A stretch of DNA of 20,391 nucleotides from a virus. The stretch spans positions 1 to 20,391 of the IMG/VR virus record IMGVR_UViG_3300025671_000696, one strand, 5' to 3'. The notes under the pieces are model-generated. The model was not told the origin of the DNA, made no database searches, and saw only the letters and a list, made by a program, of their open reading frames with translations. Below, piece by piece: positions 783 through 19,809 of this stretch (position 1 is its first letter; each line of letters starts with the position of its first letter). The position numbers and the translations under genes were made by a program.

Positions 783-1563
783 AATTAAACTTCCTTATTT
801 TGATTTTTATTATCAAGATTTTTTAACCGGCACTGCTCATTATACGCATCAGCAAATCGGAATTTATATTACCCTGATGTGCCATGCTGGGGTAAGAAAT
901 GGTGACGGCCTCCCTAATGACTTCGAGCAGCTATGTAGAATAGTTAATTTATATAGTAATGATCCTGACTTGGTTGAGTCATTAAAGACTGACTTAAACT
1001 TAGTGATTAATGAAAAATTCAAATTATTAGATAATAAGTGGCACAATGTCCGCCAATTAGAGGATTATAAAAAGAAAGTTGATATTATAAATTTAAGAAT
1101 TGAGTCAGGTAAAAAAGGTGGTCTAGCAAAAGCTAAGCAAAACTCTAGCAAAGAATCTGTATCTGTATCTGTATCTGATTCTGTATATACAGTTATATTT
1201 AATAGTATATGGGATCAGCTTTTGATTAGAAGAGGATCAAAAAAAAGAGCCTTTAAAGTTTTTCAGCAAATTGAAGGTCAAATAGATTCAAAAGTTATCA
1301 TAGATAAATATAACGAGCTATGTCGCAGCACCGATAATCATATATTTATTCCCCATTTAAGTACCTGGTTGTCTCAAGAAAGATACTATGATGAAGAAGT
1401 TTTTAACTTAGATAACTTTAAAAAAATAAACAAAATTACTGCAAATTATATTGATACTAAAAACAATATTTTATTGTTTCAATCTAAAGAGTCTTTTGGA
1501 TTAATGGAGTGGTTTTATCATAAAGACGGAACTACCGCTAAAAAAGAGGAGTATTATGGCTAA
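772..1563 (+). CDS. YdaU/DUF1376-like phage replication protein
   Basis: Residues about 6-45 (LPYFDFYYQDFLTGTAHYTHQQIGIYITL) carry the signature of the YdaU/DUF1376 N-terminal domain: LP, an aromatic pair, a D..T..hT..E/Q.G.Y..L pattern. These proteins sit in replication modules of temperate phages and are thought to act at the origin or in helicase loading. A KKGG segment and a Ser/Val linker (about residues 125-140) separate this domain from a C-terminal half that contains a FIPHLSTWLSQERYYDE segment typical of replication-initiation C-termini. The ATG at 772 is chosen because AGGGTGG at 761-767 is correctly spaced for it and too close for the TTG at 769. The gene overlaps the LexA-like gene upstream by 11 bases and the next gene by 8. 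263 residues is a normal length. Function is inferred from family membership. Confidence 0.65.
   Translation: MSDKIKLPYFDFYYQDFLTGTAHYTHQQIGIYITLMCHAGVRNGDGLPNDFEQLCRIVNLYSNDPDLVESLKTDLNLVINEKFKLLDNKWHNVRQLEDYKKKVDIINLRIESGKKGGLAKAKQNSSKESVSVSVSDSVYTVIFNSIWDQLLIRRGSKKRAFKVFQQIEGQIDSKVIIDKYNELCRSTDNHIFIPHLSTWLSQERYYDEEVFNLDNFKKINKITANYIDTKNNILLFQSKESFGLMEWFYHKDGTTAKKEEYYG
1155..1184 (+). repeat. Hexanucleotide tandem repeat coding a Ser-Val linker
   Basis: ATCTGT is repeated three times, followed by the one-base variants ATCTGA and TTCTGT. In frame it encodes alternating Ser and Val (SVSVSVSDSV) between the N- and C-terminal domains of the YdaU-like protein. Ser-Val linkers of this kind are common in that family. 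Changes in copy number would alter linker length by two residues without a frameshift. Confidence 0.85.
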
Positions 1564-2077
1564 AAAGAAAAAGAAAAAACATCTTAAATCTAATGAAAAA
1601 ATTAATACTACTGAGCAAAAAGACTATGGTGGTCAGGCCCTTATTAGAGAAAATGGTAAAATTTATAGATTGCCGGACATGGCTGAAATGGTCATGGGCC
1701 ATAAACACATATACAAAAAAATTAATTCAGTTCATGAAAGCTATTATGCCAGGAATCAACTTGATCCAGGTGATGCTAAGAATAATGCCACCAGGTTTGC
1801 AGCCGGTCAAAAACTAGAGTTTTTAGCAATAATTAGCGGTAAAAATAAAAGCTGCACTATGAATTTTGATTATTTAGCCGGTATTCCTAATGGCACAGAG
1901 TTTTTTAATATTTTAAAAATAGATTATGGCCAAGAGTTTAATGATGCTATGAAAGCTACCAAAGATTCACAATCAATAGTTTGGGATGTAATTATTGATA
2001 ATATCCCAGCAACTCATAAAAGAATGGATAAATATCGTGAGGGACTGGATATGTTAATTGACTACTGGAAGTTGTAA
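1556..2077 (+). CDS. Unassigned 173-residue early protein, possible DUF6456-like regulator
   Basis: The gene starts at ATG 1556, directly after GAGGAG, and overlaps the replication gene by 8 bases (ATGGCTAA). The protein has a very basic start (MAKKKKKKH), a central segment NNATRFAAGQKLEFLAI, and a C-terminal helical part with VWDVIIDNIPATHKRMDKY and a final LDMLIDYW. The order of an RF.AG..L element followed by a W.V......P and a closing helix ending LD.L..YW resembles the DUF6456-type helix-turn-helix proteins found in alphaproteobacteria and their phages. That is a pattern-level guess only. Its place behind the replication gene would suit a late-gene or replication regulator. A nucleic-acid-binding role is supported only by the basic N-terminus. 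Confidence 0.55.
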   Translation: MAKKKKKKHLKSNEKINTTEQKDYGGQALIRENGKIYRLPDMAEMVMGHKHIYKKINSVHESYYARNQLDPGDAKNNATRFAAGQKLEFLAIISGKNKSCTMNFDYLAGIPNGTEFFNILKIDYGQEFNDAMKATKDSQSIVWDVIIDNIPATHKRMDKYREGLDMLIDYWKL

Positions 2078-2171
2078 TGTTCCCATTTGTCCCCATTTCA
2101 TATTGTGAATAGTTAATATATAAGTTTTAGTAAGATCGAGAAGTCGGTCAAAAATCCATACAATTTATACA

Positions 2172-2471
2172 ATGAAACCAGAGGACAAACTCTGGCTTAA
2201 CATTTTAGTAAGAGGCTTATGTGATTCAGTTGGTCTTACTCATCCTAATTTTGATGTATCAGATAAAAAAATAATCAAAGAAGCTCAAGAATGGTTAGGC
2301 TCAGAAGATTTTAAAACTATTTGCGGATATTTAAAGTTGAGACCTAGCTACATAATGAAATTACATGAAAAAATCAAAAACAAAAAAAGGTCTTCAACAG
2401 ACAGAATATACTCAGCACTCTACTTTAGGATTAAACGACTCAAAACTGAAAACGACTATTTTTCTTGGTAA
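2172..2471 (+). CDS. Small unassigned phage protein with W..SEDF..IC motif
   Basis: This 99-residue protein lies after a 94-base gap. It opens with KLWLNILVRGLCDSVG, followed by AQEWLGSEDFKTICGYLKLRPSYI, and ends in a basic tail. A W plus acidic-F-C pattern followed by a 'L.P..I/V' helix occurs in small proteins near replication and methyltransferase genes of alphaproteobacterial phages, where the function is unknown. No Shine-Dalgarno sequence precedes ATG 2172. The gap holds the partly repeated CCCATTT-GT-CCCCATTT (about 2083-2099) and an AT-rich TATATA, so an internal promoter is possible. The last 107 bases overlap the next gene in a different frame; both frames look coding there. Confidence 0.55.
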   Translation: MKPEDKLWLNILVRGLCDSVGLTHPNFDVSDKKIIKEAQEWLGSEDFKTICGYLKLRPSYIMKLHEKIKNKKRSSTDRIYSALYFRIKRLKTENDYFSW

Positions 2472-2613
2472 AGATGATCAAGGCCCTATTGTTTTAATTA
2501 GGTTTGCAGATTTTGATAACCAGGAACAAGCTGAAGATTTTGTTAATACTTTTAAAGATCATAAAAATTTTCAAGAATTAGAGTCAGAACAAATTAATAT
2601 AACATTACACTAA
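2365..2613 (+). CDS. Small unassigned phage protein (82 aa)
   Basis: The C-terminal two thirds (LKTTIFLGKDDQGPIVLIR, then an FADFDNQEQAEDFVNTF segment) has a regular beta-beta-alpha look: two strands with a G.D..GPIVL turn, then an acidic helix. This suggests a compact small domain. The N-terminal 28 residues are basic and polar. ATG 2365 is the only start in the frame before this core, and it lies deep inside the previous gene (107-base overlap). It lacks a good ribosome binding site, so translation may depend on coupling. The stop overlaps the methyltransferase start as TAATG. I recognise similar short proteins in phages but know no function. Confidence 0.5.
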   Translation: MKKSKTKKGLQQTEYTQHSTLGLNDSKLKTTIFLGKDDQGPIVLIRFADFDNQEQAEDFVNTFKDHKNFQELESEQINITLH

Positions 2614-3848
2614 TGAAAATAGAGCTATGGCCAGTAGATAAGCCAGTCCCTTATATTAGAAACGCAAGAAAAATACCTCAATCTGCTATTGATAAAGTAG
2701 CCGGATCAATCAAAGAGTTTGGTTGGAGGCAGCCTATCGTGGTTGACAAAGAGGGTGTTATAATTGTAGGCCATACCAGGCTAAAAGGTGCTATGAAATT
2801 GGGCCTGAAAGAGGTTCCTATTCATGTTGCTGACCAACTTACTGACTCGCAAGTTAAAGCCTACCGCTTAGCTGATAATAGAACAGGCCAAGAGACAGGC
2901 TGGGATGATGAATTATTAAGCCTGGAGTTAAAAGAACTATCTGAACTTGACCTGGATTTAGTTTTAACCGGCTTTGATGATAAAGAGATTAATCAAATCA
3001 TTAATCAATATTCTGATAACAAAGAGGGCAATATTGGTGATGATGAAATACCAGGCGAAATTGAGACCAGGACTAATCCTGGTGATTTATGGTTGCTTGG
3101 CAATCATAGATTGATTTGCGGTGACGCAACTAATGAAGGCGACTATATTATTTTAAGTAATAATCAAAAAGCTGACATGGTCTTCACTGATCCGCCTTAT
3201 AATGTCAATTACAGTGGTCGTGGTAAAAATAATTTAGGTACTATCCAAAATGACAATATGTCTAATGATGCCTTTCAATTATTCTTAAATGACTCTTTTA
3301 ACCTTATAGATAAATATATTAAGCCATTATCATCTTTATATGTTTGTCATGGTGATAGTAAAACAGATGCTAAAATAGCTTTTGAAATAGTATTTGGTAA
3401 ATATTTTAAAAAATCCTCTACTATTATTTGGGTAAAACAATCAGCCGGTATGGGTTGGCAAGATTATAGAGTTCAACATGAGCCAATATTATATGGTTGG
3501 AAAGAGGGTGATGGTAAACATCCTTTTTATGGTGGAAGAACTAAATCAACTATTTGGAACATTAATAGAGATAACCAGGCTAAATATAAACATCCAACAC
3601 AAAAACCTTTAGCCTTAATTGAGGAAGCATTAAAGAACTCCTCTAAAGAAGAAGATATTATATTAGATCCTTTTGGTGGCAGCGGCAGCACATTATTAGC
3701 CTGTGAAAAGACCAACAGGAAAGCATTGACATTAGAATTAGATCCTAAATTTTGTGATGTAATCATACAAAGGTGGGAAGATTATACAGGACAGAAAGCA
3801 ATAAAAGATTATGGAAGAGAAGAAACTAGGAAGGCCCAGCAAATATAG
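2613..3848 (+). CDS. ParB-domain/beta-class adenine DNA methyltransferase fusion
   Basis: Residues 1-130 form a ParB/sulfiredoxin-like domain: the IPQSAIDKVAGSIKEFGWRQPIVVD start and the nucleotide-binding GHTR box at 53-56. A linker to about residue 150 leads into an N6-adenine methyltransferase domain that starts at GDLWLLGNHRLICGD, with catalytic DPPY (motif IV) at 193-196 and the S-adenosylmethionine-binding DPFGGSGST (motif I) at about 352-360. Motif IV before motif I makes it beta class, like CcrM. At 411 residues it looks full length. The protein should methylate adenine in a short site, probably to protect phage DNA from host restriction or to mark it for replication or packaging; the target site cannot be read from the sequence. 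The last 38 bases overlap the small terminase gene, placing it at the head of the packaging operon. No restriction partner is present. Confidence 0.92.
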   Translation: MKIELWPVDKPVPYIRNARKIPQSAIDKVAGSIKEFGWRQPIVVDKEGVIIVGHTRLKGAMKLGLKEVPIHVADQLTDSQVKAYRLADNRTGQETGWDDELLSLELKELSELDLDLVLTGFDDKEINQIINQYSDNKEGNIGDDEIPGEIETRTNPGDLWLLGNHRLICGDATNEGDYIILSNNQKADMVFTDPPYNVNYSGRGKNNLGTIQNDNMSNDAFQLFLNDSFNLIDKYIKPLSSLYVCHGDSKTDAKIAFEIVFGKYFKKSSTIIWVKQSAGMGWQDYRVQHEPILYGWKEGDGKHPFYGGRTKSTIWNINRDNQAKYKHPTQKPLALIEEALKNSSKEEDIILDPFGGSGSTLLACEKTNRKALTLELDPKFCDVIIQRWEDYTGQKAIKDYGREETRKAQQI

Positions 3849-4236
3849 TTCAACTATTGTAAAGAATATATTGAACAGATTAGCTTTGGGGGAAGCAATC
3901 AGAAGTGCTGTCAAAGAAGAGGGCATTGATTGGGAGACCTGGAGACAGTGGCTAAAAAAGAAGCCTGGACTAGCGGAGGAGTATGCCTTAGCTAAAATGG
4001 ATGGTATTGAATGGTCAATGAGTGACTTAGAGACTCTCGCCATGCAAACTATTAAAAGAGCTAGGGATAAACAATCAGACCTTAATGAAGTCAAAGCGGT
4101 GGATACTCTTATAAGGCATAAACAATGGAAGGCTCAGAAGCTATTCCCAAAGGTCTATGGTGATAGACAACAACTAGAGGTAGGAAATTCAGATGGTAAG
4201 CCATTCGAGATAGGATGGGCTAAGGAGGATAAATGA
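3811..4236 (+). CDS. Terminase small subunit
   Basis: This 141-residue protein opens with GRPSKYSSTIVKNIL, the classic start of many phage small terminases. It continues with a helix-turn-helix (about residues 24-50; LGEAIRSAV, then EGIDWETWRQWL) and a helical oligomerisation region rich in Glu and Lys. The VYGDRQQLEV segment near the end is also shared by this group. Small terminase rings bind the packaging site and regulate the large subunit. ATG 3811 lies inside the methyltransferase gene; no better start exists before the conserved GRPSKY. Its stop overlaps the start of the 44-residue gene as ATGA, preceded by AAGGAGG inside this gene's 3' end. The large subunit is unusually far away, 860 bases downstream. 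Confidence 0.85.
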   Translation: MEEKKLGRPSKYSSTIVKNILNRLALGEAIRSAVKEEGIDWETWRQWLKKKPGLAEEYALAKMDGIEWSMSDLETLAMQTIKRARDKQSDLNEVKAVDTLIRHKQWKAQKLFPKVYGDRQQLEVGNSDGKPFEIGWAKEDK

Positions 4237-4367
4237 ACATTGTAGCTATATTGTGGTTAAAATTAGTTAAATTAGTGGGAAATATACTGAAAGGTATATG
4301 GTGGTGTGTTAAGAAAGTTATTGATATAATTAGCTTTATTACGAAGAAGCTCTTTTCTCGCACTTAA
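4233..4367 (+). CDS. 44-residue cationic hydrophobic microprotein
   Basis: ATG 4233 overlaps the small terminase stop (ATGA) and is preceded by AAGGAGG at the ideal distance (4222-4228), the best ribosome binding site in the window. The product has 44 residues with a hydrophobic N-terminal half (MNIVAILWLKLVKLVGNIL), a WW pair at 23-24 and lysines spaced every 3-7 residues, ending KKLFSRT. It could form one amphipathic, membrane-associated helix or a short transmembrane helix with a basic end. Small phage proteins like this include holins, holin-like lysis helpers, superinfection exclusion peptides and leader peptides. No endolysin is nearby, so none of these roles is assigned. The coding call rests on the ribosome site, the coupling and the coherent residue pattern. 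Confidence 0.6.
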   Translation: MNIVAILWLKLVKLVGNILKGIWWCVKKVIDIISFITKKLFSRT

Positions 4368-4642
4368 TTCCCTATATAGGTAAAAATCAGAATAAAATTT
4401 ATATTCTGTTCGTATTTTGTTCATTGGGGGCAAAAAAATAATATTTTTATGGAGTACTTATCGAGTATTTATCTATAAAACCATTGATAATCAATGGAAA
4501 GCACACCATAGAATTAAGTGTGCCAGGTATTTTGGATTATATTCCTGGTTTGTTCGCTTTTTTAAATATTATCAACCCCCATTGACTAGCTGACATTGTC
4601 ATTGGAAGTGATTTCAACACAAAAAAAAAATCTCTAAAGGCC
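4368..4642. other. Non-coding palindrome-rich region between the terminase genes
   Basis: No coding frame of useful length was found here on either strand. Perfect inverted repeats follow one another: CCTATATAGG (4371-4380); CAGAATA-7-TATTCTG (4388-4408); CCATTGAT-A-ATCAATGG (4481-4497); GCACAC-11-GTGTGC (4501-4523); CCAGG-16-CCTGG (4523-4548); TGACA-T-TGTCA (4591-4601). TCATTGGGGG (4421-4430) and CCCCCATTGA (4576-4585) are complementary in 9 of 10 positions and would enclose three of these hairpins. An A10 run lies at about 4621-4630. The region could give a multi-branch structured RNA, or hold operators, a packaging site or an attachment site. The repeats are directly visible; the role is unknown. 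Confidence 0.6.
4452..4473 (+). repeat. Tandem 11-base direct repeat
   Basis: GAGTACTTATC is followed immediately by GAGTATTTATC, two adjacent copies with one difference. They lie inside the palindrome-rich stretch between the terminase genes and about 170 bases from the 3' end of the tRNA gene. Such pairs can be binding sites for a protein that contacts one DNA face (iteron or arm-type sites), but two imperfect copies could also be chance. Confidence 0.6.
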
Positions 4643-4717
4643 TGGTGCTGATGAGAAGAATCGAACTTCCGACTTCTATCTTACCAAGATAGCACTCTAC
4701 CACTGAGTTACACCAGC
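4643..4717 (-). tRNA. tRNA-Thr (anticodon GGT)
   Basis: On the minus strand the sequence folds as a complete tRNA. The acceptor arm is GCTGGTG/CATCAGC (one G-U), U8-A9 is present, the D stem is ACTC/GAGT, the anticodon stem is CTATC/GATAG with loop TTGGTAA (anticodon GGT, reading ACC and ACT threonine codons), and the T stem is GGAAG/CTTCT with loop TTCGATT. The discriminator is A and CCA is encoded (4645-4643). All stems pair, so the tRNA should be functional. It is antisense to every surrounding gene and its 3' end faces the palindrome cluster, with a T-rich run about 12 bases beyond the CCA on the minus strand. The phage could use it to support its threonine-rich structural proteins, or it could mark an attachment site. 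No integrase is visible, so the second idea is open. Confidence 0.93.
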
Positions 4718-4733
4718 ATATCTGATTTATAAC

Positions 4734-4952
4734 ATGATTGATTTTACTTTGAACAAAAAAAGTGTTCCTGAGGGAAAATTACATAGCGAATTGACCATAT
4801 TAAATTGGGATCGCAAACAACAAATGCAGAAAAGAGTATGCCTGTACTGCGATGAATGGGGATCGTTTGCCATTCAGCCAAAAGACGCATATAGGCAATA
4901 TTATTTTCTGTGTGGAGATCATTATTCAAGTGAAAAAAACAAAAAAATCTAA
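4734..4952 (+). CDS. Small CxxC...CxxH putative zinc-binding protein
   Basis: This 72-residue protein has C36-x2-C39 and C60-x2-H63, spaced about 20 residues apart, a pattern that could hold one zinc ion as in small treble-clef or ribbon folds. No longer domain is recognisable. ATG 4734 lacks a clear Shine-Dalgarno sequence; an in-frame ATG at about 4824 would still retain all four ligands. The gene lies directly beyond the divergent tRNA gene and overlaps the next small gene by 23 bases. Small zinc proteins next to terminases include HNH nucleases needed for packaging, but no H-N-H motif is present, so that role is not assigned. Confidence 0.5.
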   Translation: MIDFTLNKKSVPEGKLHSELTILNWDRKQQMQKRVCLYCDEWGSFAIQPKDAYRQYYFLCGDHYSSEKNKKI

Positions 4953-5100
4953 AGCTAAAATTGATGTCTTTGCCTTAATGGTTAAGGAATTAAATGATAG
5001 GACTCCTGTAAAGCAGCATTCAGGGCGAGGAATTGTTCAGGATAGCACTGTTGCCAGGATTCAAGACATTTATAAGGGGGAAAAGAAAGACAATGAATGA
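4930..5100 (+). CDS. Small unassigned protein before large terminase (56 aa, GTG start)
   Basis: The frame is open from ATG 4852, but residues 1-26 of that reading overlap the zinc-protein gene and look like a shadow. From GTG 4930 (GGAG at 4914-4917, 12 bases upstream) the product is a coherent 56-residue basic protein: KKTKKSKAKIDVFALMVKEL, then SGRGIVQDSTVARIQDIY and a charged tail. The stop overlaps the terminase start (ATGA), so the two are probably translationally coupled. The two helices and TVARIQDIY segment might form a small DNA-binding unit, but I do not recognise a family. The start codon is the main uncertainty. Confidence 0.45.
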   Translation: MKKTKKSKAKIDVFALMVKELNDRTPVKQHSGRGIVQDSTVARIQDIYKGEKKDNE

Positions 5101-6380
5101 AAATTACAATCCCTTACAAACCTAGACCATTACAACAAGAAATACATAGCAGTTTAAAAAGATTTAATGTCCTGGTCTGCCACAGAAGATTTGGAAAAAC
5201 TGTCCTTACAGTCAATGAGATCATAAAGAAGTGCCTACAAAATAAACTTCCAAGACCTCGCTATTATTATATAGCACCAACTTACAGTATGGCAAAAAGG
5301 ATAGCTTGGGACTATTTAAAATATTACACCTCTGTTCTTCCTAAAATGGAATATCACGAAACAGAGCTAAGGGCCGATCTTCCTAATGGCGGAAGAATAC
5401 AATTATTAGGCTGCGAAAGACCACAAACTTTAAAAGGTTTATATATGGATGGCGTCGTCTTAGATGAGGTGGCCCAAATGCCCCCTAAATTATGGACTGA
5501 GATCATAAGACCAGCATTATCAGATCGTGTTATTACTGACAAAGAGGGTAAATGGAAAGACAACGCATTTATGATAGCGATTGGCACTCCGGCTGGGCAT
5601 AATTCTTTTTTTGATTTATATAATCATGGTCTTCATGATGAAAATTGGTATGCCAAAAGTTTTAAAGCTAGTGAAACAGGAGTAGTAGCCAAAGACGAGC
5701 TAGACGAAGCTAAAAAACTCATGCCCCCTGAAATATATGAGGCGGAGTATGAATGCAGTTTTGAAAGTTCAGCTATTGGTGCTATCTATTCTCAATCTTT
5801 AGCTAAATGTGAGGCAGATGGCCGGATAACTAAAGTTCCTTATGACTCCACCATTAAAGTAGACACCTACTGGGACTTAGGTATGCGAGATAAAACCGCT
5901 ATATGGTTTTGTCAGCAAAAAGGATCAGCTATTCACATTATTGACTATTTTGAGGATAGTGGCGAGAGCCTGGAGTATTATGCTTCTATCTTAGACCAAC
6001 GAGGTTATGTCTATGATACCCACTACCTACCCCATGATGCATCGGTTAGAGAAATAGGCACAGGAAAATCAAGATTAGAAATTGCCCAATCATTAGGATT
6101 GGTAACGAGCATAGTTCCTAAAATGAGTATTGAAGATGGCATTAATGCTACAAGAATGACATTAGGCAGATGCTGGTTTGATTTTGAAAAAACAAAAGAC
6201 GGATTGGATGCCCTTAGACAATATCGCTGGGCAGTCACTGATAAAGGCGAACAAAAGAATAGGCCTTTACACGATTGGACTTCTCATGCTGCGGACTCCT
6301 TTCGTTATTTATGTACAGGATTACAAGAGTCAAAAAATTGGTCATCAAAAATTAAATATCCAAAATTAGGGATAGTATGA
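5097..6380 (+). CDS. Terminase large subunit (packaging ATPase/nuclease)
   Basis: This 427-residue protein has both expected domains. The N-terminal ATPase has a Walker A-like CHRRFGKT at 28-35, the adenine/motor segment YYYIAPTYSMAKRIAWDYL near 56-74 and Walker B GVVLDE at 119-124, with the catalytic Glu at 124. The C-terminal RNase H-like nuclease has its first acidic motif in DTYWDLGMRDKT (about 257-268) and its last in HDWTSHAADSFRY (Asp 400 in HAAD). It translocates DNA into the prohead and cuts concatemers. Its length suits the family. The gene begins within the stop of the small upstream gene and overlaps the Dam-type gene at its end. The separation from the small terminase by a tRNA and non-coding DNA is unusual. 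Confidence 0.95.
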   Translation: MKITIPYKPRPLQQEIHSSLKRFNVLVCHRRFGKTVLTVNEIIKKCLQNKLPRPRYYYIAPTYSMAKRIAWDYLKYYTSVLPKMEYHETELRADLPNGGRIQLLGCERPQTLKGLYMDGVVLDEVAQMPPKLWTEIIRPALSDRVITDKEGKWKDNAFMIAIGTPAGHNSFFDLYNHGLHDENWYAKSFKASETGVVAKDELDEAKKLMPPEIYEAEYECSFESSAIGAIYSQSLAKCEADGRITKVPYDSTIKVDTYWDLGMRDKTAIWFCQQKGSAIHIIDYFEDSGESLEYYASILDQRGYVYDTHYLPHDASVREIGTGKSRLEIAQSLGLVTSIVPKMSIEDGINATRMTLGRCWFDFEKTKDGLDALRQYRWAVTDKGEQKNRPLHDWTSHAADSFRYLCTGLQESKNWSSKIKYPKLGIV

Positions 6381-6823
6381 AACCGAAAGATAATAAATTT
6401 CACAAAGGCAACTCTAAAGACGGCAAACATTATTGGCTGACTCCAAAAGATTTATATGAATCATTAGATAATGAATTTCATTTTGATTTTGATCCATGCC
6501 CATATCCTAAACCTGATGATTTTGATGGATTAACTAACGAATGGGGAGAATCAAATTATGTAAATCCTCCTTTTGGATCAATAATACACGAAGGTAAAAA
6601 AAAAGGTGCTACTGCGTGGGTTAGAAAAGCATTAAAAGAACATGAAAAAGGTAAGGATGTTGTTTTTGTTTATCCAGTGGATAAATGGTTATTAATGCTT
6701 CTTGAGTCTGGTGCAAAAGTAAGAAATTTAAAAGATGTAAAATGGTGTGCGATAGAAGATGGAACAGAAGGTAAAGGTTTAGGTAGGCACATCGCCTGTT
6801 TTATATTGAAAGCAAATAAATGA
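6377..6823 (+). CDS. Dam-type phage N6-adenine DNA methyltransferase
   Basis: The 148-residue product matches the phage 'DNA N-6-adenine-methyltransferase (Dam)' family. It has the early HYWLTPKDLYESL segment, FDFDPCP near 36-42, a W followed by the catalytic-type NPPF at 63-66, and a late VVFVYPVDKWLLMLL strand-helix unit. The length is typical of these compact enzymes, which lack a separate target-recognition domain. It probably methylates adenine in incoming or replicating phage DNA, protecting it from restriction. AGGGA at about 6367-6371 is well spaced for ATG 6377, which overlaps the terminase stop, and the stop overlaps the portal start. It is the second methyltransferase in the packaging operon, and its motif set differs from the ParB-fused enzyme. 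Confidence 0.82.
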   Translation: MKPKDNKFHKGNSKDGKHYWLTPKDLYESLDNEFHFDFDPCPYPKPDDFDGLTNEWGESNYVNPPFGSIIHEGKKKGATAWVRKALKEHEKGKDVVFVYPVDKWLLMLLESGAKVRNLKDVKWCAIEDGTEGKGLGRHIACFILKANK

Positions 6824-8838
6824 AATTAACAAAAGAAAAATTAAAAGCCCTTATATCCCAAGAGATCACAAACTCGTTAGGTTATTATGGCGGACAATTA
6901 TCAGAACAGCGAAGAAATGCTCTTAAATATTATTTAGGAGAGCCTCTAGGAAATGAAGTAGAGGGACAATCGCAAGTTCGATCACAAGATGTTTTAGAAG
7001 TGGTGGAAAGTATTCTTCCCTCTATGATGCGTATCTTTACACAAGGCGAAAGTATAGTTCGCTTTGAGCCTCAAGGGCCTGAAGATGTAGCTTATGCTGA
7101 CCAGGCATCTGATTACATCAACCATATCTTTATGAAAGATAATAATGGTTATTCAATATTACATACTATGTTTAAAGATGCCCTTATTTCTAAAAATGGT
7201 TTTGTTAAATATTATTGGAAAAAAGATTTAGAGCAAAAAGAAGAGTCTTATGAAAATTTAACAGCTGCGGAGTACCAATCTTTATTAAGCGATCCTGAGA
7301 TTGAAGTTATTGAAGACCAGGACAACAACCCTGATACTGATATAGCTAATATTGATTACAATGAAGCTAAATTTAATGTCACTGTTAAAAGAAAAAAAGA
7401 TTATGGCCGAGTGGTTATTGAAAGTGTACCCCCTGAAAGTATTTTAGTTACCAAGACTGCTACCTCATTAGAAGATTGTAATTTTATTGGCCAAAGAGTT
7501 TTTAAAACCAGGTCAGAGCTTATTAGTATGGGCTTTGATAAAAAAATTGTTAATGAACTGCCTGTTGCGGATGAAGAAATTTTTAACAACGAAGCTGTTA
7601 CAAGAAGGTCTTATGATGATGAGACCATGCCTCAAGAATATCAAAATATTGATTCCTTACTTACTAGAGTTAGCATCGTGGATTGTTATATGCGTTGCGA
7701 TTATGATAATGATGGGATTGCTGAGTTAAGACACATTGTAGTAGGTGGCTCAGGGCCTAATACTTATCACATATTAGAGAATGAACCTATTGAACAAATT
7801 CCTTTTGCTACTGTTACTGCTATCCCTATGCCTCATCGCTTCTATGGATTATCCATTTATGACTTAATTGGCGATGTTCAAGAAATTAAAACAACTTTAC
7901 TAAGACAAACACTTAACAATGCGTATCTGCAAAACAACGCAAGAACAGTGGTTGTCGATGGTCAAGCCAACATAGACGATCTCCTTACTTCTAGAGCTGG
8001 GGGTATTGTAAGAGTTAAATCACCAAACGCAGTAACTCCTCTACAGTCCCCCAACTTTATGCAAGAAGGCTTAGCGATGCTTGAAAAAGTAGATCAAATT
8101 CGTGAAGGCCGCAGCGGAGTCTCTAAAGTACAAATGGGCCTGGATAGTGATGTTATTAATAAATCTCACACCACTGCTACTAGTGCTAATGTGATGATGA
8201 ACGCATCCACACAAAGAATTGAACTGTATGCAAGAAACTTTAGTGAAGGCATTAAAAGAATGTTTCAAGGTATCCTGGCACTTGTTTGTAAATACCAGGA
8301 CAAAGAAAGAATTATTAAATTAAGAAATCAATTTGTTCCAATGAACCCTAGAGAGTGGGTGGACAGATATAATGCGACAGTCCAGGTAGGTTTAGGAACA
8401 GGATCGCAAGACCAGCGATTAGAAGTTTTAGGAAGAGTTTTAGCAGTCCAGGAAAAATTAATTGCGACTGGTGGTATGGGAATTGTAGATCCTCAAAAGA
8501 TTTATAACACCTTAGAGAAGTACCTGGAGAATGCCGGTTATAAAGATGCAAGTCAATTCTTTAACAATCCGTCTAATACTCCACCGCCACCCCCTAAGCC
8601 ACAGCAGCCTGATCCAACGATTGAATTAGCGATGGCAGAACAACAAAGATTAAGAGCTAGAGATCAAGCTGATATGCAACTCAAAGCAAGAAAACAACAA
8701 GCTGATGAGCAATACAAATTAGAAAAAATTAATCTCGATCAGCAAAAACTAGCAACCCAAGTTATAAAAGAAGCTAATACTAAAAATTTAGAAAAAGAAA
8801 AATTAGCATCAAAAATTATACAACAAGGAATTAACTAA
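6820..8838 (+). CDS. Portal protein (podovirus type)
   Basis: At 672 residues this is the size of P22-like portal proteins. The start (QRRNALKYYLGEPLGNE, SQVRSQDVLEVVESILPSMMRIFTQG) is the usual portal opening: a short helix, Y..G, then a helix ahead of the wing. A VPPESILVTKTATSLEDC segment near 208-225 and RFYGLSIYDLIGDVQEIK near 343-360 are conserved portal regions that precede the stem and tunnel-loop helices. A poly-proline stretch (about residues 586-596) leads to an Ala/Gln/Lys-rich coiled coil at the C-terminus, resembling the barrel of podovirus portals. Twelve copies form the DNA entry vertex where the terminase and later the tail dock. The gene overlaps its neighbours as ATGA and TAATG. 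Confidence 0.9.
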   Translation: MKLTKEKLKALISQEITNSLGYYGGQLSEQRRNALKYYLGEPLGNEVEGQSQVRSQDVLEVVESILPSMMRIFTQGESIVRFEPQGPEDVAYADQASDYINHIFMKDNNGYSILHTMFKDALISKNGFVKYYWKKDLEQKEESYENLTAAEYQSLLSDPEIEVIEDQDNNPDTDIANIDYNEAKFNVTVKRKKDYGRVVIESVPPESILVTKTATSLEDCNFIGQRVFKTRSELISMGFDKKIVNELPVADEEIFNNEAVTRRSYDDETMPQEYQNIDSLLTRVSIVDCYMRCDYDNDGIAELRHIVVGGSGPNTYHILENEPIEQIPFATVTAIPMPHRFYGLSIYDLIGDVQEIKTTLLRQTLNNAYLQNNARTVVVDGQANIDDLLTSRAGGIVRVKSPNAVTPLQSPNFMQEGLAMLEKVDQIREGRSGVSKVQMGLDSDVINKSHTTATSANVMMNASTQRIELYARNFSEGIKRMFQGILALVCKYQDKERIIKLRNQFVPMNPREWVDRYNATVQVGLGTGSQDQRLEVLGRVLAVQEKLIATGGMGIVDPQKIYNTLEKYLENAGYKDASQFFNNPSNTPPPPPKPQQPDPTIELAMAEQQRLRARDQADMQLKARKQQADEQYKLEKINLDQQKLATQVIKEANTKNLEKEKLASKIIQQGIN

Positions 8839-12055: not shown

Positions 12056-12067
12056 AGAGAGGATAAA

Positions 12068-12289: not shown

Positions 12290-12643
12290 ATGGCTAAAAT
12301 ATTTTCCCTTAATGATCCTGGTGATCAATCATCAGTTAAGACTAATTTAATTGTAGATGAAGCGGAAAATAAAATTCATATTGAAAATTATCAAGACCAG
12401 GCAAGTATTAAAGAAATATTAGATGCTAATCAACTTGCAAGAAATGAAGGGGCTTACAAATCTAATTTATTAAAAAATGAAAAAGGTTATCGTGTAGCTC
12501 GTTTACCTAACATCATAGTTCATCAACTTGCAAAAAAAGGAATAATTACAACCTCAGGTAAGGTCTTAGATAAACAAGCATTTTTTAGATGGCTAAACGA
12601 TCCTGATAACAGACATTTTAGAATATACACAGGAAATTTATAA
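12290..12643 (+). CDS. Phage head-tail region protein, RVARLPNIIV family (117 aa)
   Basis: The C-terminal half carries GYRVARLPNIIVHQLAKKGI and, further on, FFRWLNDPDNRHFRIYTG. A 'R.VA.+P..V...L...GI' element followed by a 'WLNDP.N..FR...G' ending is common in a small protein placed between coat and tail genes in podoviruses of several groups. The N-terminal half is acidic and less conserved-looking. Its exact role is not known to me; structural or assembly function is inferred from the constant position. It begins immediately after the previous stop without a strong ribosome site and overlaps the next gene (TAATG), so it is probably coupled at both ends. Confidence 0.65.
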   Translation: MAKIFSLNDPGDQSSVKTNLIVDEAENKIHIENYQDQASIKEILDANQLARNEGAYKSNLLKNEKGYRVARLPNIIVHQLAKKGIITTSGKVLDKQAFFRWLNDPDNRHFRIYTGNL

Positions 12644-13272: not shown

Positions 13273-14751
13273 ATGATTGAGTTTGGTGACTTACAAGCCG
13301 ACTTACCTACTTTTCAAAACAATGGTGCTTTAAAAGTAGATAATGTTATTCCTTTAAAAAAAGGTTATAGGGCCTTACCAGGCTTCCAGGCATTAAGCGG
13401 CACAGGATTGACTAGTAGTGCTGTGGGTTTATTTACAAGTTTTTCGGCTAGTGGATCAACTAACTATGCTGGTGACTCAACTAAGTTATATCAAATGGAC
13501 TCCTCTTTGGTGTTCCAGGATATAAGTAAAGTTGGTGGGTATTCCAACTCCACTACTGAGAACGCAAGAGACTTTTGGGCCTTTACACAATTTGGTTCTA
13601 ATATTATTGGAACTAATTATGCAGATAATATTCAAAAGTTTGAAGAGGGTGTTGACAGTGCGTTTAGTGATTTAGTTTCATTAAAAGCAAAATATATAGC
13701 AGTTGTAAGAGATTTTGTTGTTGTTGGTTATACCGATGAAAGCGGAACAACTTATAATCAGAGAGTAAAGTGGTCAGGTATTAATGACAGTTCAACCTGG
13801 ACACCTAGCCAAACTACTCAATCTGGTTATCAAGACATTGTTGGTTCTCATGGAAACATTCAACAAATAGTTGGCGGTGAGTCATCAGGGATCGTCTTTA
13901 TGGAAAAGGCAATCTATCGTATGTCTTATGTTGGTGTGCCTTTAATTTTTCAGTTTGATAAGATAGCTGACTCCATTGGTGCTTTTGCTCCTAAATCAGT
14001 TGCCTCTTTTGGTAATATGATTTTCTTCTTGGCACAAGATGGTTTTTATAAACTAACAGGCGGACAGCAATTAACACCGATTGGAAATGGTAGAGTTGAT
14101 AATTTCTTTTTTGATGATTTATCATCTAACCTGGATGGCATCACTAGTGCTATCGATCCTAACAACTCGATTGTTGTTTGGTCATATCGAGGCTCAGGGG
14201 CAACAGGAACAACAAATAATAAATTATTAATTTATAACTATGCAGTTGATAAATGGAGTACAGGCAGCGGCCAAGACCTAGAGTTTATGGCTAGTGCTTC
14301 ACAAGAGGCATTCACTACATTAGAGAGCCTGGATGTTTTAGGCGACTTAGATAACTTACCTAAATCCTTAGACTCATACTATTATGGTGAGGGTATTATT
14401 GGTCTAGCTGGTTTTAATAGCGATCATAAATTTGGCAAATTTATCTCTAATAGTTTATCTGCCACAGTAGATACAACTGAGTTTGAAGGTGCTGCAAATA
14501 AAAGATCAACTTTAATTAATTGTAGGCCCATTGTAGACGGAACAACCAATACTACAGTAACTGTGACTCCTATTACCAGGAACTCGCAATTAGATAGTAT
14601 TACAGTAGGTGATGCGGTTAGTACCAATGACTCAGGGACTTGTCCTTTACGATCAACCTCTAGGTATCATCGTATTAGAGTTAATGTAGATGGAAATTTT
14701 AATACCCTTAGTGGTGTAGATATAGAAGCGAGACCTGAAGGTGGCCGATAA
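13273..14751 (+). CDS. Tail nozzle/packaged-DNA stabilization protein (P22 gp10-like)
   Basis: The 492-residue product starts FGDLQADLPTF, then DNVIPLKKGYRALPGFQAL, a pattern shared by gp10-like stabilization proteins ('P D....NN.G.....NV.P...GYR..PG'). Repeated short beta elements follow, including SSTWTPSQ-type turns, GSHGNIQQIVGG, VFMEKAIYRMSYVG, SVASFGNMIFFLAQDGFY and NSIVVWSYRG, consistent with a beta-propeller platform. P22 gp10 (472 residues) forms the hexameric hub that binds tailspikes and the needle, and this protein is close to that length. AGGTGG precedes ATG 13273, which abuts the upstream stop. The C-terminus overlaps the next gene by 11 bases. Confidence 0.78.
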   Translation: MIEFGDLQADLPTFQNNGALKVDNVIPLKKGYRALPGFQALSGTGLTSSAVGLFTSFSASGSTNYAGDSTKLYQMDSSLVFQDISKVGGYSNSTTENARDFWAFTQFGSNIIGTNYADNIQKFEEGVDSAFSDLVSLKAKYIAVVRDFVVVGYTDESGTTYNQRVKWSGINDSSTWTPSQTTQSGYQDIVGSHGNIQQIVGGESSGIVFMEKAIYRMSYVGVPLIFQFDKIADSIGAFAPKSVASFGNMIFFLAQDGFYKLTGGQQLTPIGNGRVDNFFFDDLSSNLDGITSAIDPNNSIVVWSYRGSGATGTTNNKLLIYNYAVDKWSTGSGQDLEFMASASQEAFTTLESLDVLGDLDNLPKSLDSYYYGEGIIGLAGFNSDHKFGKFISNSLSATVDTTEFEGAANKRSTLINCRPIVDGTTNTTVTVTPITRNSQLDSITVGDAVSTNDSGTCPLRSTSRYHRIRVNVDGNFNTLSGVDIEARPEGGR

Positions 14752-15070
14752 TCAATTTCCAACAGTTCCTTTATCTATACCGGATACAGGACAACATCTT
14801 AGATTAGTTTCAACATCATTGAATAATACGATCAATGGTAAATTGAATAGTACCGGCAGCATTACTTTAACTGCTAGTGCAACATCAACAACTTTAACAG
14901 ATGCTCGTATAGGCGGTAATTCAGTTATTTTATTTACACCTACTACCGCTAATGCCGCAACTGCTTTAGCTAATTTATATGTATCTGCAAGAACCGAAGG
15001 AAGTGCAACACTAACTCATGCAAGTTCAGCAAACACCGATCAATCATTTTCATACTGCATCATTGGTTAA
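14741..15070 (+). CDS. Small beta-rich protein at the P22 needle position (109 aa)
   Basis: The gene begins with GTG 14741 inside the preceding gene. The protein has a short N-terminal segment (NQFPTVPLSIPDTGQH) and a beta-rich remainder, with TGSITLTASATSTTLTDARIG and VILFTPTTANAATALANLY, ending LTHASSANTDQSFSYCIIG. The 'GSVTLTA..TTT.V.D.R....S.I.L.PTT..AA....+Y+S' pattern is familiar from C-terminal domains of phage tail fibres and small tail proteins and resembles an immunoglobulin-like or knob domain. In P22 the gene at this place encodes the gp26 needle that plugs the tail. This protein lacks an evident long coiled coil, so it may be a short plug, or a separate receptor or assembly piece. 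Confidence 0.65.
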   Translation: MADNQFPTVPLSIPDTGQHLRLVSTSLNNTINGKLNSTGSITLTASATSTTLTDARIGGNSVILFTPTTANAATALANLYVSARTEGSATLTHASSANTDQSFSYCIIG

Positions 15071-15464
15071 TGAAGTAGGAAGAGTTCCGATTGAGCATAT
15101 AGAGCTTTTATGGGATCAAACATCACCCTTACTAAAGAAAGCCCTTGATGAAACATATTCTATCCAGGATATAAAATCAGGATTAATAAATGATCGAATG
15201 CAGCTATTTATATGTTGGAATAATGAAAAAGTTGAAAGTGCTGTTGTTACAGAAATAGCACAATATCCTCAATCTAAAGTATTAAGATATTTTTTAGCTG
15301 GAGGTTCTAACCTAGATAACTGGTTAGAGAGAATACAAGAAGCAATAGAAAAGTTTGCAAAAAAAGAAAATTGTACTCATTTAGAAGTCGCTGGGCGAAA
15401 AGGATGGGTAAGAAAATTGAAAGGATTTAAAGTTAAAGCATACTTACTTAACAAGGAAATATAA
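15018..15464 (+). CDS. GNAT-fold phage protein (T7 gp13-like)
   Basis: Residues about 22-148 show the gp13-like GNAT pattern: HIELLWDQTSPLLKKALDET, a strand MQLFICWNNEKVESAVVTEI, PQSKVLRYFLAGG, the helix LERIQEAIEKFAKKENC, THLEVAGRKGW and a closing GFKVKAYLL. It has the overall fold of N-acetyltransferases, but in podoviruses such proteins are associated with the virion or its assembly. Whether it binds acetyl-CoA is doubtful, since a clear R/Q-x-x-G-x-G/A loop is not visible. ATG 15018 overlaps the previous gene by 53 bases; TTG 15063 is an alternative start. Its place between tail and ejection genes is as expected for T7 gp13. Confidence 0.65.
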   Translation: MQVQQTPINHFHTASLVNEVGRVPIEHIELLWDQTSPLLKKALDETYSIQDIKSGLINDRMQLFICWNNEKVESAVVTEIAQYPQSKVLRYFLAGGSNLDNWLERIQEAIEKFAKKENCTHLEVAGRKGWVRKLKGFKVKAYLLNKEI

Positions 15465-15466
15465 TC

Positions 15467-16282
15467 ATGTCAAAAGGATCAAACCCACAAAATGTAACAA
15501 CTACAACATCAAGTGAACCATCAGAATTTATTAAGCCTTACTATACTCAAGCTATAAATGCTGCTCAGGACTTATATGAAAATCAGAACCTACCATCTTT
15601 TTTTCCTAATAACACTTATGTAGATTTTTCCCCTGAAACAAGCACTGCTTTACAATTAGCATCTGCAAGAGCTGTACAGGGCAATCCATTACTAGGTTCA
15701 TCCCAAGCTGAGATAAACAAAGTTCTTAGAGGTGATTATTTAAATCCATCTTCTAATCCTTATTCAAAAGCCTTGTTTAATCAAATGGCTGGTGATGTTA
15801 CATCACAAGTACAATCTCAATTCAGTAAAGCTGGTAGACTAGGCAGTTCTGCTAATCAAGAAACCTTAGCTAATAGTTTAGGTCAATTAGCAAACCAGGT
15901 GTATAGCGATCAATATAATCGTGAAAGACAAAACCAAGTAGCTGCAACTCAAATAGCACCTCAGTTAGGTGAGATGGATTATAATGATATTGCAAGGCTA
16001 CAAGCAGTAGGCCAAGAAAAAGAAGCTCTACAAATGGCTCAGTTGCAAGATGCAATCGCCAGGTATGATTACTCACAACAACAACCTTATACAAAATTAA
16101 ATCAATATTTAGCATCATTAGGTGCAGCTGTTCCCTCAACAACATTAACTACTCAACCTGTCTTCAGAAACACAGGTGCTGGTTTACTTGGCGGTGCGAT
16201 GCAAGGATATAACTTAGGTAATAACTTTGGCATGGGTGGTTTAGGTGCTGTTGCTGGAGGACTACTAGGAGGATTCTTTTAA
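15467..16282 (+). CDS. Candidate ejection protein I (271 aa, gp7-like position)
   Basis: AAGGAA lies at suitable distance before ATG 15467. The protein has a Ser/Thr-rich start, a helical Gln/Ala-rich body (about 40-215; e.g. NQMAGDVTSQVQSQFSKAG and RLQAVGQEKEALQMAQL), and a glycine-rich hydrophobic tail (about 236-271; GLLGGAMQGYNLGNNFGMGG, ending GLLGGFF). Such Gly-rich tails are membrane-active in proteins that form pores or helical channels. It has the form expected of an injected virion protein. It lies in the position of P22 gene 7 (229 residues), first of the three ejection genes. The function is inferred from order, size and composition, not from a recognised domain. Confidence 0.6.
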   Translation: MSKGSNPQNVTTTTSSEPSEFIKPYYTQAINAAQDLYENQNLPSFFPNNTYVDFSPETSTALQLASARAVQGNPLLGSSQAEINKVLRGDYLNPSSNPYSKALFNQMAGDVTSQVQSQFSKAGRLGSSANQETLANSLGQLANQVYSDQYNRERQNQVAATQIAPQLGEMDYNDIARLQAVGQEKEALQMAQLQDAIARYDYSQQQPYTKLNQYLASLGAAVPSTTLTTQPVFRNTGAGLLGGAMQGYNLGNNFGMGGLGAVAGGLLGGFF

Positions 16283-17700
16283 TGGCCGCAATCGATATTA
16301 ATGCAATTTTAGCTAATCTGCCTAGAAGCACTGCTGAAAATCCTTATTACATAAATCCACCTCAACCTAAAGGAAATTATTCTGCTATTGTTGCAAGGCC
16401 GGATATGAATTTTAATTATTCAGCAATCACACCTAATACTAGTCCTTTAGTAAGTGGTCAAACAGGGGCATTAAATGCAACTAATAATGTTTATGCTAAG
16501 CCTGTAATTAATAACAATAATAATAGTAATAAATATAGTGCAAATAAAGTACCCCCTAATCAAACAGGACAAAATTTATTAAACTTTATATCAAGCAAAC
16601 CAGGACAAGGATTAGCTAGAGGTTTATTAGAAGCCGGTGGTTATTCTACTACTCCTGTTTCGTTTAGCTCTGCTTTAGCTCAAGGGATGAAGTATATGAA
16701 CGAAGCAGACGCAGCAGAAGCAACAGCAAAACAACAAGATTTTGAAAATCAATTATCAGTAGCTACTTTAAACGCAACCGCACTGAAAAACCAACCTGAC
16801 CAATATAGACCATTAACAAATGAGGAAAGAGTACAATATGGCATTCCTAAAGATGGAGCATATAGATTTAACATCACTCAAAACAAACCTGAGTCTATTG
16901 GTGGTGGTGGAACAAATGTAAATATCACTAATGAAGCAGAAAATAAAGGCTCTGAAAATTATTTTAAAACAAGAGGCGATAATTTTGGTAAGTCAGTTGA
17001 CTTAATTGAAACAACAGCAATTGCTGCTGACGACGATAATCAACTTCTTAATAGATTTGAGCAATTAGCTAGTGATGTTAATACTGGTGCTGGTTCATCA
17101 TTCCTACTTGATCTAAATAACTGGGCCAACACATTTGGAATTAACATCGACACTACAGGTCTAGGAGCATTAGAGGCCCTAAACTCTGTGTCAGGTAGAT
17201 TTGTTATGCAGCAAGTTCAAAAGACTAAAGGTGCAGTTTCAGATAGAGAAATGGCTTACTTCTTTAAAATATCTGCAAACATTGGAAACAGCCCACTTGG
17301 TAACCAATTAATTATTAATATGGCTAGATCCATTAATGATAGGTCTATTGCTGAAAACAACCTACTTCAAGATTTCTTATCTGAGCAATATAAACTTGAT
17401 CCTGAACAAAGTTCTTACTCTTTAGATCAAAAATGGAAAAAAGTTAGAGAACAATTTAGAGCAGATAATCAATTATTTACAGGCGATATCGAAGAAGAGA
17501 TAAAAAAATACTACCAGGATAATGGTTTAAATTATACAGGCGGTGTTTCAGATATGAATAAAAAAGATATTGCTAAAACAAATGATTTATCTGACTTCCA
17601 AAAACAATATCCGAATGCTGTTTATATTGGAGAGACTGTTAATGGTAAATCTCAATTTAAAGAAATTGTAGATGGCAAGGAATTATTTTACGAGATATAA
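16282..17700 (+). CDS. Candidate ejection protein II (472 aa, gp20-like position)
   Basis: GGAGGA lies just upstream of ATG 16282, inside the previous gene, whose stop overlaps as TAATG. The first 110 residues are Asn/Pro-rich and contain two NYSAI units and a run of five Asn. Residues about 145-215 are helical and then end in GGGGTNVNI. A domain from about 225 to 365 holds NLLNRF-like helices and VQKTKGAVSDREMAYFFKI, a 'GAVSDRE...F' segment seen in phage virion and ejection proteins that precede a large internal protein. The length equals that of P22 gp20 (471), the second ejection protein. No catalytic motif is visible. Injection into the host is the inferred role. Confidence 0.6.
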   Translation: MAAIDINAILANLPRSTAENPYYINPPQPKGNYSAIVARPDMNFNYSAITPNTSPLVSGQTGALNATNNVYAKPVINNNNNSNKYSANKVPPNQTGQNLLNFISSKPGQGLARGLLEAGGYSTTPVSFSSALAQGMKYMNEADAAEATAKQQDFENQLSVATLNATALKNQPDQYRPLTNEERVQYGIPKDGAYRFNITQNKPESIGGGGTNVNITNEAENKGSENYFKTRGDNFGKSVDLIETTAIAADDDNQLLNRFEQLASDVNTGAGSSFLLDLNNWANTFGINIDTTGLGALEALNSVSGRFVMQQVQKTKGAVSDREMAYFFKISANIGNSPLGNQLIINMARSINDRSIAENNLLQDFLSEQYKLDPEQSSYSLDQKWKKVREQFRADNQLFTGDIEEEIKKYYQDNGLNYTGGVSDMNKKDIAKTNDLSDFQKQYPNAVYIGETVNGKSQFKEIVDGKELFYEI

Positions 17701-17703
17701 AAC

Positions 17704-19809
17704 ATGGCTGAATTTACACCTGTCACAACCCCCTCTAAATTAGTAAACACAAATCAAAATAGTGGCGGAAATAGTGAAAATAAATACACCGCAGTTAAAG
17801 AACCCTCTAAGTTAAAATTTAATGAAATAATAGATAAGACTATTGATACTTATGGTGATGCTACAAGATTAGTTAATACAGGGGCATCTTCTTATTTTGC
17901 AACTATTCCCTCTATGCCGGAGTCTTTAGTAAACTTAGGGAATTTAGGTGTTAATTATATTGGTAAAAAATTAGGCTTAGTGCCTGAAAACAAACAAGCT
18001 GGTTATATTGATATTCCAATTTTACCTAGTTATGATGAAACTAAAACTTTTCTTCAAGCTCCTCCAGGACAAATTAAATATAAAGAAAGTCTATTACCAC
18101 AAGAAAAAATAGATGAAATAAAAATGGGCCTGTTGGATATGAAGTTAATTCCCAATACACCAGACTATAACAAAGCCTACTTAACAGAATTAGAAATTGC
18201 TAGTGGCGATAAACCAAGTTTAGAAATGCAAACAGGGGTTGGTAAGTTTTTAGAAACCCCAGTTGAATATTATGGCATGGGTAAAACTTTTGGTAAAACA
18301 TCAGGAATTATTAGTGGTACTGCTGGAGTTTTAGAGTCTACTTTAAAGCAAATAGGAGTTAATGATCAAACTGCTATGGTTAGTGCTTTGGGTACTGATG
18401 TCTTATTAAGCCTGGTTGCTGGTTTAAGAAACCCAAGTTATGTAACTAAACTCCAGGACTCAGTTCAAAATGCAATCAACAATGGAAAACTAAATGAAGC
18501 AAAAGACCTATTAAGTTTTGCTAAAGAATACAATATTCCTTTGTTGGGAATTGAAGCCTTAGCTCAAACTACTAAAGACGACTCTTTAATAAAATTAGCA
18601 AAAGTAACCGCTATGAGTAGTGAAGGTTCTAAATATTTTAAGGGCCTAAATGGTAGAGAGTTAGTTTTAAATGATAGTGCAAATAAATTTTTAGTTGATT
18701 TCTTTGGTAATGAAAACATTCGATACCTGGATGTAACTCAAAAGACAATAGACACCCTACAAAATAGATTAAATTCACTAAGACAAAACATTAATAAAGT
18801 TGCTCGTAAAAATGGATATAAGCAATTTGATGAGTTTGCTTTTGGCGAACAAGTAGCAAATGAGTTGTCTAATACTTTAGCTGATTTAGCAACATCCGCA
18901 AATTTAAACAAAAGTAGAGCTAACACATTTGAAAAATATGCACTTGAAATTAAAGGAAAAAACCACAAGGCAGTTCAGTCATTATCACAAGAATTAGGCA
19001 AGGATATACAAAAGTATAAAAGTGGCCCTCAAGCTGATGCAAAACAAGTCGCTTATTTAACAGAAATTAAAGGAATCGTTGATCAAACTTTAAAACAAAT
19101 AAAAGGTTATGAAAGCGGATCAAAAACTTTTCAAAATTTAAGCAAGAAAATTTTAGCTCCATTAGAAGAAGCAGTCACAGTTAATAATCAATTAAAACTA
19201 AACGCAGATGCTACTGTTGGATTATTAGAGAAAGTTTTATTAGGCAAACAAGATAATATTTCAATCACCAGGCTTTTTAATGAAGTAAATAAAATTGATC
19301 CTAAACTATCATCGGAAATAGCTCAGGCCTTATTTACTGAAGTCTTTTCCAATATACAAGTTAGTCCTGGTATGGGGAAAAATATGTTTACTAAAGTTTA
19401 TGGTACACCTAAGCAGAAAAAACAAGTCCAGGCTATTTTAACAGGAGTAGCTAAAGCAAACGGACAAGATCCAGCTATGTATATTAAAGGATTTGAAAGA
19501 ATGTTAGAGACTTTTAATGCAACTTCAAAATTATCAGGTGGCGAGTCTATTACTTATGGTGCTACAAAGATGGATGAGGCTATGGGGCTGCCTAAACTTA
19601 AATTTAGCCCATTAGAAATATTTGACACTATTGTAGCAAATAATAATTGGAATGAATTAGCTAAAATAATTACATCACCAAACTCATTAGATGCACTAAT
19701 AACATTATCTAAAACTCCAGTTAGAAAGAATTGGCCAGTTATAGTTCAACCAATATTTCAAGGTTATAGACAAGTCGAAGACAAAAATTATGAGGAAACA
19801 ACACAATGA
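17704..19809 (+). CDS. Candidate ejection protein III (701 aa, gp16-like position)
   Basis: The largest gene in the window starts three bases after its neighbour. The N-terminus has two copies of a [FY]-T-[PA]-V-x2-PSKL element (4-13 and 28-37). Residues about 180-260 are unusually hydrophobic and glycine-rich for a soluble protein (GMGKTFGKTSGIISGTAGVL, DVLLSLVAGLRNP), possibly membrane-inserting. Residues about 345-500 look like long helices. No lysozyme or transglycosylase motif was found, so it does not obviously cut peptidoglycan. Its place as the last gene before the tail fibre, and its size, match P22 gp16 (609 residues). The stop overlaps the tail-fibre start (ATGA). An internal virion or ejection role is the best inference. 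Confidence 0.6.
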   Translation: MAEFTPVTTPSKLVNTNQNSGGNSENKYTAVKEPSKLKFNEIIDKTIDTYGDATRLVNTGASSYFATIPSMPESLVNLGNLGVNYIGKKLGLVPENKQAGYIDIPILPSYDETKTFLQAPPGQIKYKESLLPQEKIDEIKMGLLDMKLIPNTPDYNKAYLTELEIASGDKPSLEMQTGVGKFLETPVEYYGMGKTFGKTSGIISGTAGVLESTLKQIGVNDQTAMVSALGTDVLLSLVAGLRNPSYVTKLQDSVQNAINNGKLNEAKDLLSFAKEYNIPLLGIEALAQTTKDDSLIKLAKVTAMSSEGSKYFKGLNGRELVLNDSANKFLVDFFGNENIRYLDVTQKTIDTLQNRLNSLRQNINKVARKNGYKQFDEFAFGEQVANELSNTLADLATSANLNKSRANTFEKYALEIKGKNHKAVQSLSQELGKDIQKYKSGPQADAKQVAYLTEIKGIVDQTLKQIKGYESGSKTFQNLSKKILAPLEEAVTVNNQLKLNADATVGLLEKVLLGKQDNISITRLFNEVNKIDPKLSSEIAQALFTEVFSNIQVSPGMGKNMFTKVYGTPKQKKQVQAILTGVAKANGQDPAMYIKGFERMLETFNATSKLSGGESITYGATKMDEAMGLPKLKFSPLEIFDTIVANNNWNELAKIITSPNSLDALITLSKTPVRKNWPVIVQPIFQGYRQVEDKNYEETTQ

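Follow-up and report, generated by a model that had tools for sequence, protein, structure and literature searches.

An excess of the word CCWGG, confined to one marine phage lineage, that avoidance of other words does not explain

Multispecific cytosine methyltransferases of SPbeta-type phages target GGCC, GCNGC, CCGG and CCWGG. The last of these words is also the one modified by DISARM (defense island system associated with restriction-modification; PMC11676413), a system that is repressed by methylation and targets DNA about tenfold more strongly where cognate methylation sites are missing (PMC9142583). The loss of restriction words by phages is well known, and near-complete elimination of sites is rarer in temperate phages, according to Rusinov et al. 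(2018; PMC6286503); keyword look-ups in that paper did not turn up an excess of CCWGG, and in the literature searched no earlier report was found of a phage lineage that attracts a restriction-type word or carries such an excess. In contrast to this well-described avoidance, we describe a clean, lineage-limited gain of CCWGG, set against a family background of loss, in the virus record IMGVR_UViG_3300025671_000696 (20,391 bases, G+C 34.6%; this whole stretch is “the window” below), which belongs to a marine phage lineage. Here the exact word carries extra weight in both orientations, and the excess is accounted for neither by avoidance nor by codon usage or base composition.

Exact counting gives 55 CCWGG sites in the window (34 CCAGG and 21 CCTGG), while CCSGG and GGWCC are both absent from its full length. 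Independent bases would give 12 sites, so that the word is 4.6-fold up; a first, sequence-only reading, which had put the sites at about 55 against an expectation of about 11, is confirmed in its observation as a whole. The sites are:

1364 to 19432, strandless: the CCWGG set, plus-strand starts (a, CCAGG; t, CCTGG) 1364t 1749a 1766a 1791a 2520a 2776a 2921t 2951t 3051a 3067a 3078t 3575a 3938t 3964t 4523a 4544t 4641t 5054a 5171t 5969t 7101a 7317a 7508a 8139t 8274t 8295a 8382a 8448a 8523t 9039a 9542a 10248a 12317t 12397a 12717t 12746a 13378a 13386a 13515a 13796t 14130t 14328t 14576a 15164a 15895a 16059a 16600a 17514a 18064a 18411t 18453a 18726t 19268a 19366t 19428a

A dinucleotide Markov model raises the expectation to 19 and a third-order model to 31.7 (z 5.5), though the latter model itself contains CCAG and CAGG. 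Shuffles that preserve the proteins and codon usage yield 14.3 sites (range 9-21, n=300) against the 50 that lie in coding sequence (z 13.9), and those that also keep the dinucleotides at codon junctions yield 17.7 (z 10.7); the count is thus about three times what proteins and codons require, and neither figure comes near the roughly 50 that the sequence-only reading had named as its refutation. CCWGG is the top over-represented outlier among 477 5-mers tested. Some 40 loci, unrelated or only remotely related, served as background; their maximum z reached about 10, with ratios mostly below 2, and the biggest outlier was again CCWGG, in a contig of Desulfatibacillum (187 versus 104 expected). 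As an observation apart, three prophage regions of Desulfatibacillum and Pseudodesulfovibrio (L104, L105 and L114) have CCWGG 1.4-1.8-fold over-represented (z 6.5-10).

Sites occur in all three codon phases, as had been claimed, but the enrichment does not: the Pro-Gly phase (phase 0, CCN-GGN) holds 10 against 8.4 expected, whereas phase 1 holds 12 against 2.2 and phase 2 holds 28 against 4.1. Where the protein leaves freedom, in phases 1 and 2, the word is about 6.6-fold up, and the excess arises only by synonymous choice. Glutamine before a G is written CAG rather than CAA in a ratio of 16 : 9 after C and of 7 : 44 otherwise, the ratio after C falling to 2 : 21 when the following base is not G; leucine before a G is CTG in 12/37 cases after C and in 1 of about 95 otherwise. 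These codon choices show word-level epistasis, and differing amino-acid pairs and phases yield the same word. A translational codon-pair or tRNA effect could appeal to the CAG, AGG and CTG codons involved and to the tRNA-Thr that the phage carries; since the same word is built from varied amino-acid pairs and phases, since some sites are non-coding and since NNC-CAG without a following G is disfavored, such an effect is already largely refuted and is almost certainly not the cause. Non-coding DNA holds 3 sites in 788 nt, where its base composition would predict about 0.26: an inverted pair, which could form a hairpin, and a site at 4641 that arises from the encoded CCA end of the tRNA-Thr gene and the adjoining GG.

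4523 to 4548, strandless: non-coding inverted pair, CCAGG, 16 nt, CCTGG, preceding the tRNA gene
4643 to 4717, minus strand: tRNA-Thr (anticodon GGT)

The tRNA-Thr(GGT) is also found in several relatives; compared with 385 genomes from a single class, it matched at 81% at most.

A Chi-like or other strand-directed host signal would likewise be a short GC-rich word in excess, and the coding totals (31 CCAGG versus 19 CCTGG) lean in its favor, but both orientations are enriched alike once synonymous freedom is considered (phase 2: CCAGG 6.0-fold, CCTGG 9.4-fold), and we regard such a signal as very unlikely. The spread of the sites along the genome is random (gap coefficient of variation 1.06), and the site-free stretches that had been singled out are unremarkable, the largest gap having P = 0.31 and the scaffold/coat gap P = 0.011 when picked post hoc. 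Nor do the flanks show any extended preference, except that C before and G after the word are excluded, which follows from the avoidance of CCNNGG.

That avoidance is part of a wider pattern, and the earlier description of the window as the opposite of restriction avoidance is only half right: CCWGG is up, but the same genome strongly avoids many other words. ACGT, GCGC, CCCG, GCAGG, CCNNGG and GCNNGC are all at zero despite synonymous opportunity, GGNNCC occurs once, and CCAGA occurs 5 times against about 31 expected. It could be argued that CCWGG is the residue of this avoidance, the neighboring words having been purged and the sequence collecting in a permitted one. We therefore sampled synonymous sequences, keeping codon usage fixed and holding some 165 avoided words and patterns at or below their observed counts; this null is not an independent model, since the avoided set was picked from the same sequence. 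It accounts fully for CCAGC (35 versus 36.2) and GASTC (39 versus 34.6), and similar spill-over is visible among relatives, since where GCWGC is purged GCSGC is up and the total about equal (GAWTC and GASTC behave in the same way). Yet it gives only 16.7 CCWGG (standard deviation 2.1) against 50 observed (z about 10-16), and just 2/51 positions that read CCAGA in a sister clade (about 80% nucleotide identity) have turned into CCWGG in the window. Extreme as the avoidance is, spill-over is refuted by this sampling for the present avoided set and could be saved only if far more words had been avoided in the past, so that we consider it quite unlikely. Nearly all one-base neighbors of CCWGG lie within about 2 standard deviations of expectation, and the weight therefore rests on the exact word; the sequence-only reading had proposed selection on the DNA word itself, and this part holds, the excess being synonymous, present in several phases and in non-coding DNA, and above every avoidance-aware null.

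In the window and its relatives, members of a temperate phage family, the zero-word set is in its own right exceptionally large, and includes the two-base-gapped palindromes CCNNGG, GCNNGC and GGNNCC. Asymmetric words can be avoided as fully as palindromes: CACTG is at zero, against 16-31 expected under a dinucleotide model, in several relatives, and CATCC (GGATG) is likewise at zero in others, the relatives concerned including L036, L057, L023 and L065.

Only two further words stand out under the constrained null, GGSCC (20 versus 7.5) and GCWGC (31 versus 19.5):

1636 to 19028, strandless: GGSCC, 20 sites, second enriched gapped palindrome, starts 1636 1696 2482 2801 3833 5371 5471 7075 7753 8136 10478 10714 13370 13577 14525 17123 17175 18126 18642 19024
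927 to 19917, strandless: GCWGC, 32 sites (31 within the genes used in the test), third enriched gapped palindrome, starts 927 1325 1799 1851 2729 3679 3685 5013 5410 6288 7264 8111 8604 8982 9193 10078 10582 11218 11527 13171 14264 14491 14856 15200 15560 15941 16124 16711 17023 17208 19587 19913

With a cautious variance floor, z is 10.2 for CCWGG, 5.7 for GGSCC, 3.3 for GCWGC and 3.0 for the next word, so that GCWGC is borderline. The top three of the 477 5-mers are all gapped palindromes, of which there are 28 in the set (chance about 2e-4), and this fits a symmetric enzyme of the restriction or methyltransferase type. It also speaks, together with the like enrichment of both orientations in phase 2, against the Chi-like or packaging-orientation word that had been suggested; of the earlier interpretation, enrichment of the DNA word as such is supported and a strand-directed signal is not, while its suggestion of a site kept for a methylation mark is the one tentatively favored below.

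Relatives were found via the terminase, the portal protein and a tail gene.

5097 to 6380, plus strand: terminase large subunit, used to find relatives
6820 to 8838, plus strand: portal protein, used to find relatives

The 3-5-fold enrichment is seen only in the lineage of the window, that is, in the window itself, L001 (17 versus 4 expected), L003 (15 versus 3), L214 (12 versus 3) and the left part of L002; L001, L003, L081 and L214 are contigs near-identical to the window. In the sister clade CCWGG is about 1.2-3-fold up, and most other relatives have almost none (at most 1 site in 79/137 further contigs). The excess, whose absence from close relatives was to have counted against it, is thus shared by the nearest contigs, less marked in the 80%-identical clade and lacking in most others. 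When the constrained procedure was applied to relatives, the only comparable outlier was CCWGG in L003 (15 versus 3), with weaker ones, again CCWGG, in the sister-clade contigs L023 (16 versus 5) and L024 (11 versus 4). The avoided words, too, are on or off lineage by lineage, word by word, a pattern that restriction systems changing over time would be expected to leave.

L002 matches the window without a difference up to 9849, where identity drops abruptly to about 80%; its right part has 0 CCWGG, 8 GCAGG and 10 GCGC. Treating it as a simple 93.6% relative was rejected because of this sharp break after about 9.8 kb and the changed word profile; it is either a recombinant phage or a chimeric contig, and it was used only in pieces. 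Integrases were found in 5/16 relatives searched, which indicates that the phage family is temperate. Scans of genome contigs with the portal and terminase did not find a close prophage (best 53% identity, plus a stray phage-like contig at 69%).

At positions homologous to the window's sites, relatives carry words such as TCAAG, CAAGA and CTAAA, many of which would need two or three synonymous changes to become CCWGG, and the sister clade has the word at 38/274 of these positions versus 35/1626 where the window lacks it. A mutational or repair bias might make or protect CCWGG, either by very short patch (VSP)-like repair of CTWGG to CCWGG or by a modification that slows the loss of C, and CTAGG of the sister clade is indeed often CCAGG in the window (10/45). 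However, CTWGG is not depleted (CCTAG 21 versus 20, CCAAG 25 versus 28), gains come equally by transversion and also from two-step states, and protecting one C per strand would, by our own estimate, yield about twofold at most. VSP repair is rejected on the first two of these grounds, and a bias of this general kind is unlikely.

The word might also be the binding site of a dimeric host or phage protein (for replication, recombination, the nucleoid or segregation) and be selected for binding density rather than methylation. It is exact, orientation-symmetric, also present in non-coding DNA and randomly spread along the genome, all of which would suit such a protein; but it shows no extended flanking preference beyond what CCNNGG avoidance explains, GGSCC and GCWGC are enriched too, and a five-base palindrome with a W center is characteristic of type II enzymes, not of proteins of this sort. 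We think this rather improbable, if the most serious of the alternatives.

The explanation that we favor, tentatively and as a real possibility, is that CCWGG, and less strongly GGSCC and GCWGC, are favored double-stranded recognition words, a putative mark left by a symmetric enzyme that helps the phage; that the five-base palindrome is favored in both orientations leads us to infer an enzyme of the restriction or methyltransferase type. By analogy with DISARM-type self-marking, there may be weak selection for CCWGG as a putative mark set by a host or phage methyltransferase. The likeliest case would be that cytosines in CCWGG are methylated, either by an enzyme of the host or by a methyltransferase encoded in that part of the phage genome which is missing here; since the family is temperate, prophage DNA could be marked in the lysogen. 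Restriction alone would select against sites, and a benefit per site would be expected if methylation were read as self: where a defense is damped by methylation, each extra site would bring a small gain and sites would accumulate under weak selection. From the 6-8-fold weight we estimate 2Ns at about 2, at which very small benefits would suffice. Most relatives presumably meet enzymes that cut CCWGG and hence purge it, so that a word which is a target for them would serve the window lineage as a passport. The stronger claim, that in this phage lineage the usual pressure of restriction has been turned round and the word is gathered by weak positive selection, its methylation marking the DNA as self to a methylation-sensing defense, we hold more doubtfully; the data suggest that a short enzyme-recognition word can turn from target into advantage for a phage. 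The remaining likelihood is shared by the other rivals and by composite or further causes.

Several points weigh against this explanation. We know of no DISARM system for which GGSCC or GCWGC is among the motifs. The sister-clade contigs L005, L009, L015, L016 and L019 keep CCWGG without a cytosine-5 methyltransferase, and no PF00145 cytosine-5 methyltransferase was found in the near-identical contigs, nor its motif in the window, which may, however, lack much of the genome. Class 2 DISARM, moreover, still protects against modified phage, and DISARM can restrict phage that lack the target sequence, so that the benefit of a mark would be partial at most (DISARM paper).

Two methyltransferase genes were recognized in the window:

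2613 to 3848, plus strand: ParB_N + N6_N4_Mtase fusion (family match), predicted orphan DNA methyltransferase
6377 to 6823, plus strand: Dam-family (PF05869) methyltransferase (family match), accessory

The fusion is also found in the lineage contigs covering that region (L001, L002, L081) and in L008. The Dam-family gene is not the cause of the excess, since L001 and L003 lack it yet keep the excess. A cytosine-5 methyltransferase lies upstream of the terminase in 15 contigs from three clades, all of which keep CCWGG and GGCC, and many contigs without one have neither word; as sole cause it was rejected, being missing from several CCWGG-rich contigs. More generally, the terminase gene is flanked by two positions, one upstream and one just after it, at which methyltransferase genes are exchangeable (ParB-fused N6/N4, Dam-like, cytosine-5 and other N6/N4); the contigs of the window lineage and of the sister clade differ in the genes they carry there, and other clades largely lack them.

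A gain of CCWGG that exceeds even an avoidance-aware null is a signature of another kind than avoidance, and its interest lies mainly in its testability. The avoidance-constrained synonymous null tells true attraction apart from spill-over and can serve for other phages as well. If self-mark mimicry is true, counting words in viral contigs could point to methylation-sensing defenses and to host links from sequence alone, and recognition-site content would record the type of defense, cutter or self-reader, under which a phage lives.

Compared with known systems, the window resembles Chi sites in its excess of a short GC-rich word but has no strand direction. It shares with Dcm and VSP bias in enterobacteria an over-representation of the same motif, but here there is no loss of CTWGG and gains are not restricted to T-to-C. 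Its word list overlaps that of the SPbeta-type multispecific methyltransferases, although the window lacks such a gene and GGSCC, rather than GGCC in general, is enriched. Like phages that avoid recognition sites, it has many type II-like words at zero, with relatives differing word by word; unlike them, it has CCWGG three- to fivefold up, and its family is temperate yet extreme. From DISARM self-marking it differs in that no DISARM gene was seen here and two further words are enriched; the motif CCWGG is the same, and a defense damped by methylation would favor more sites.

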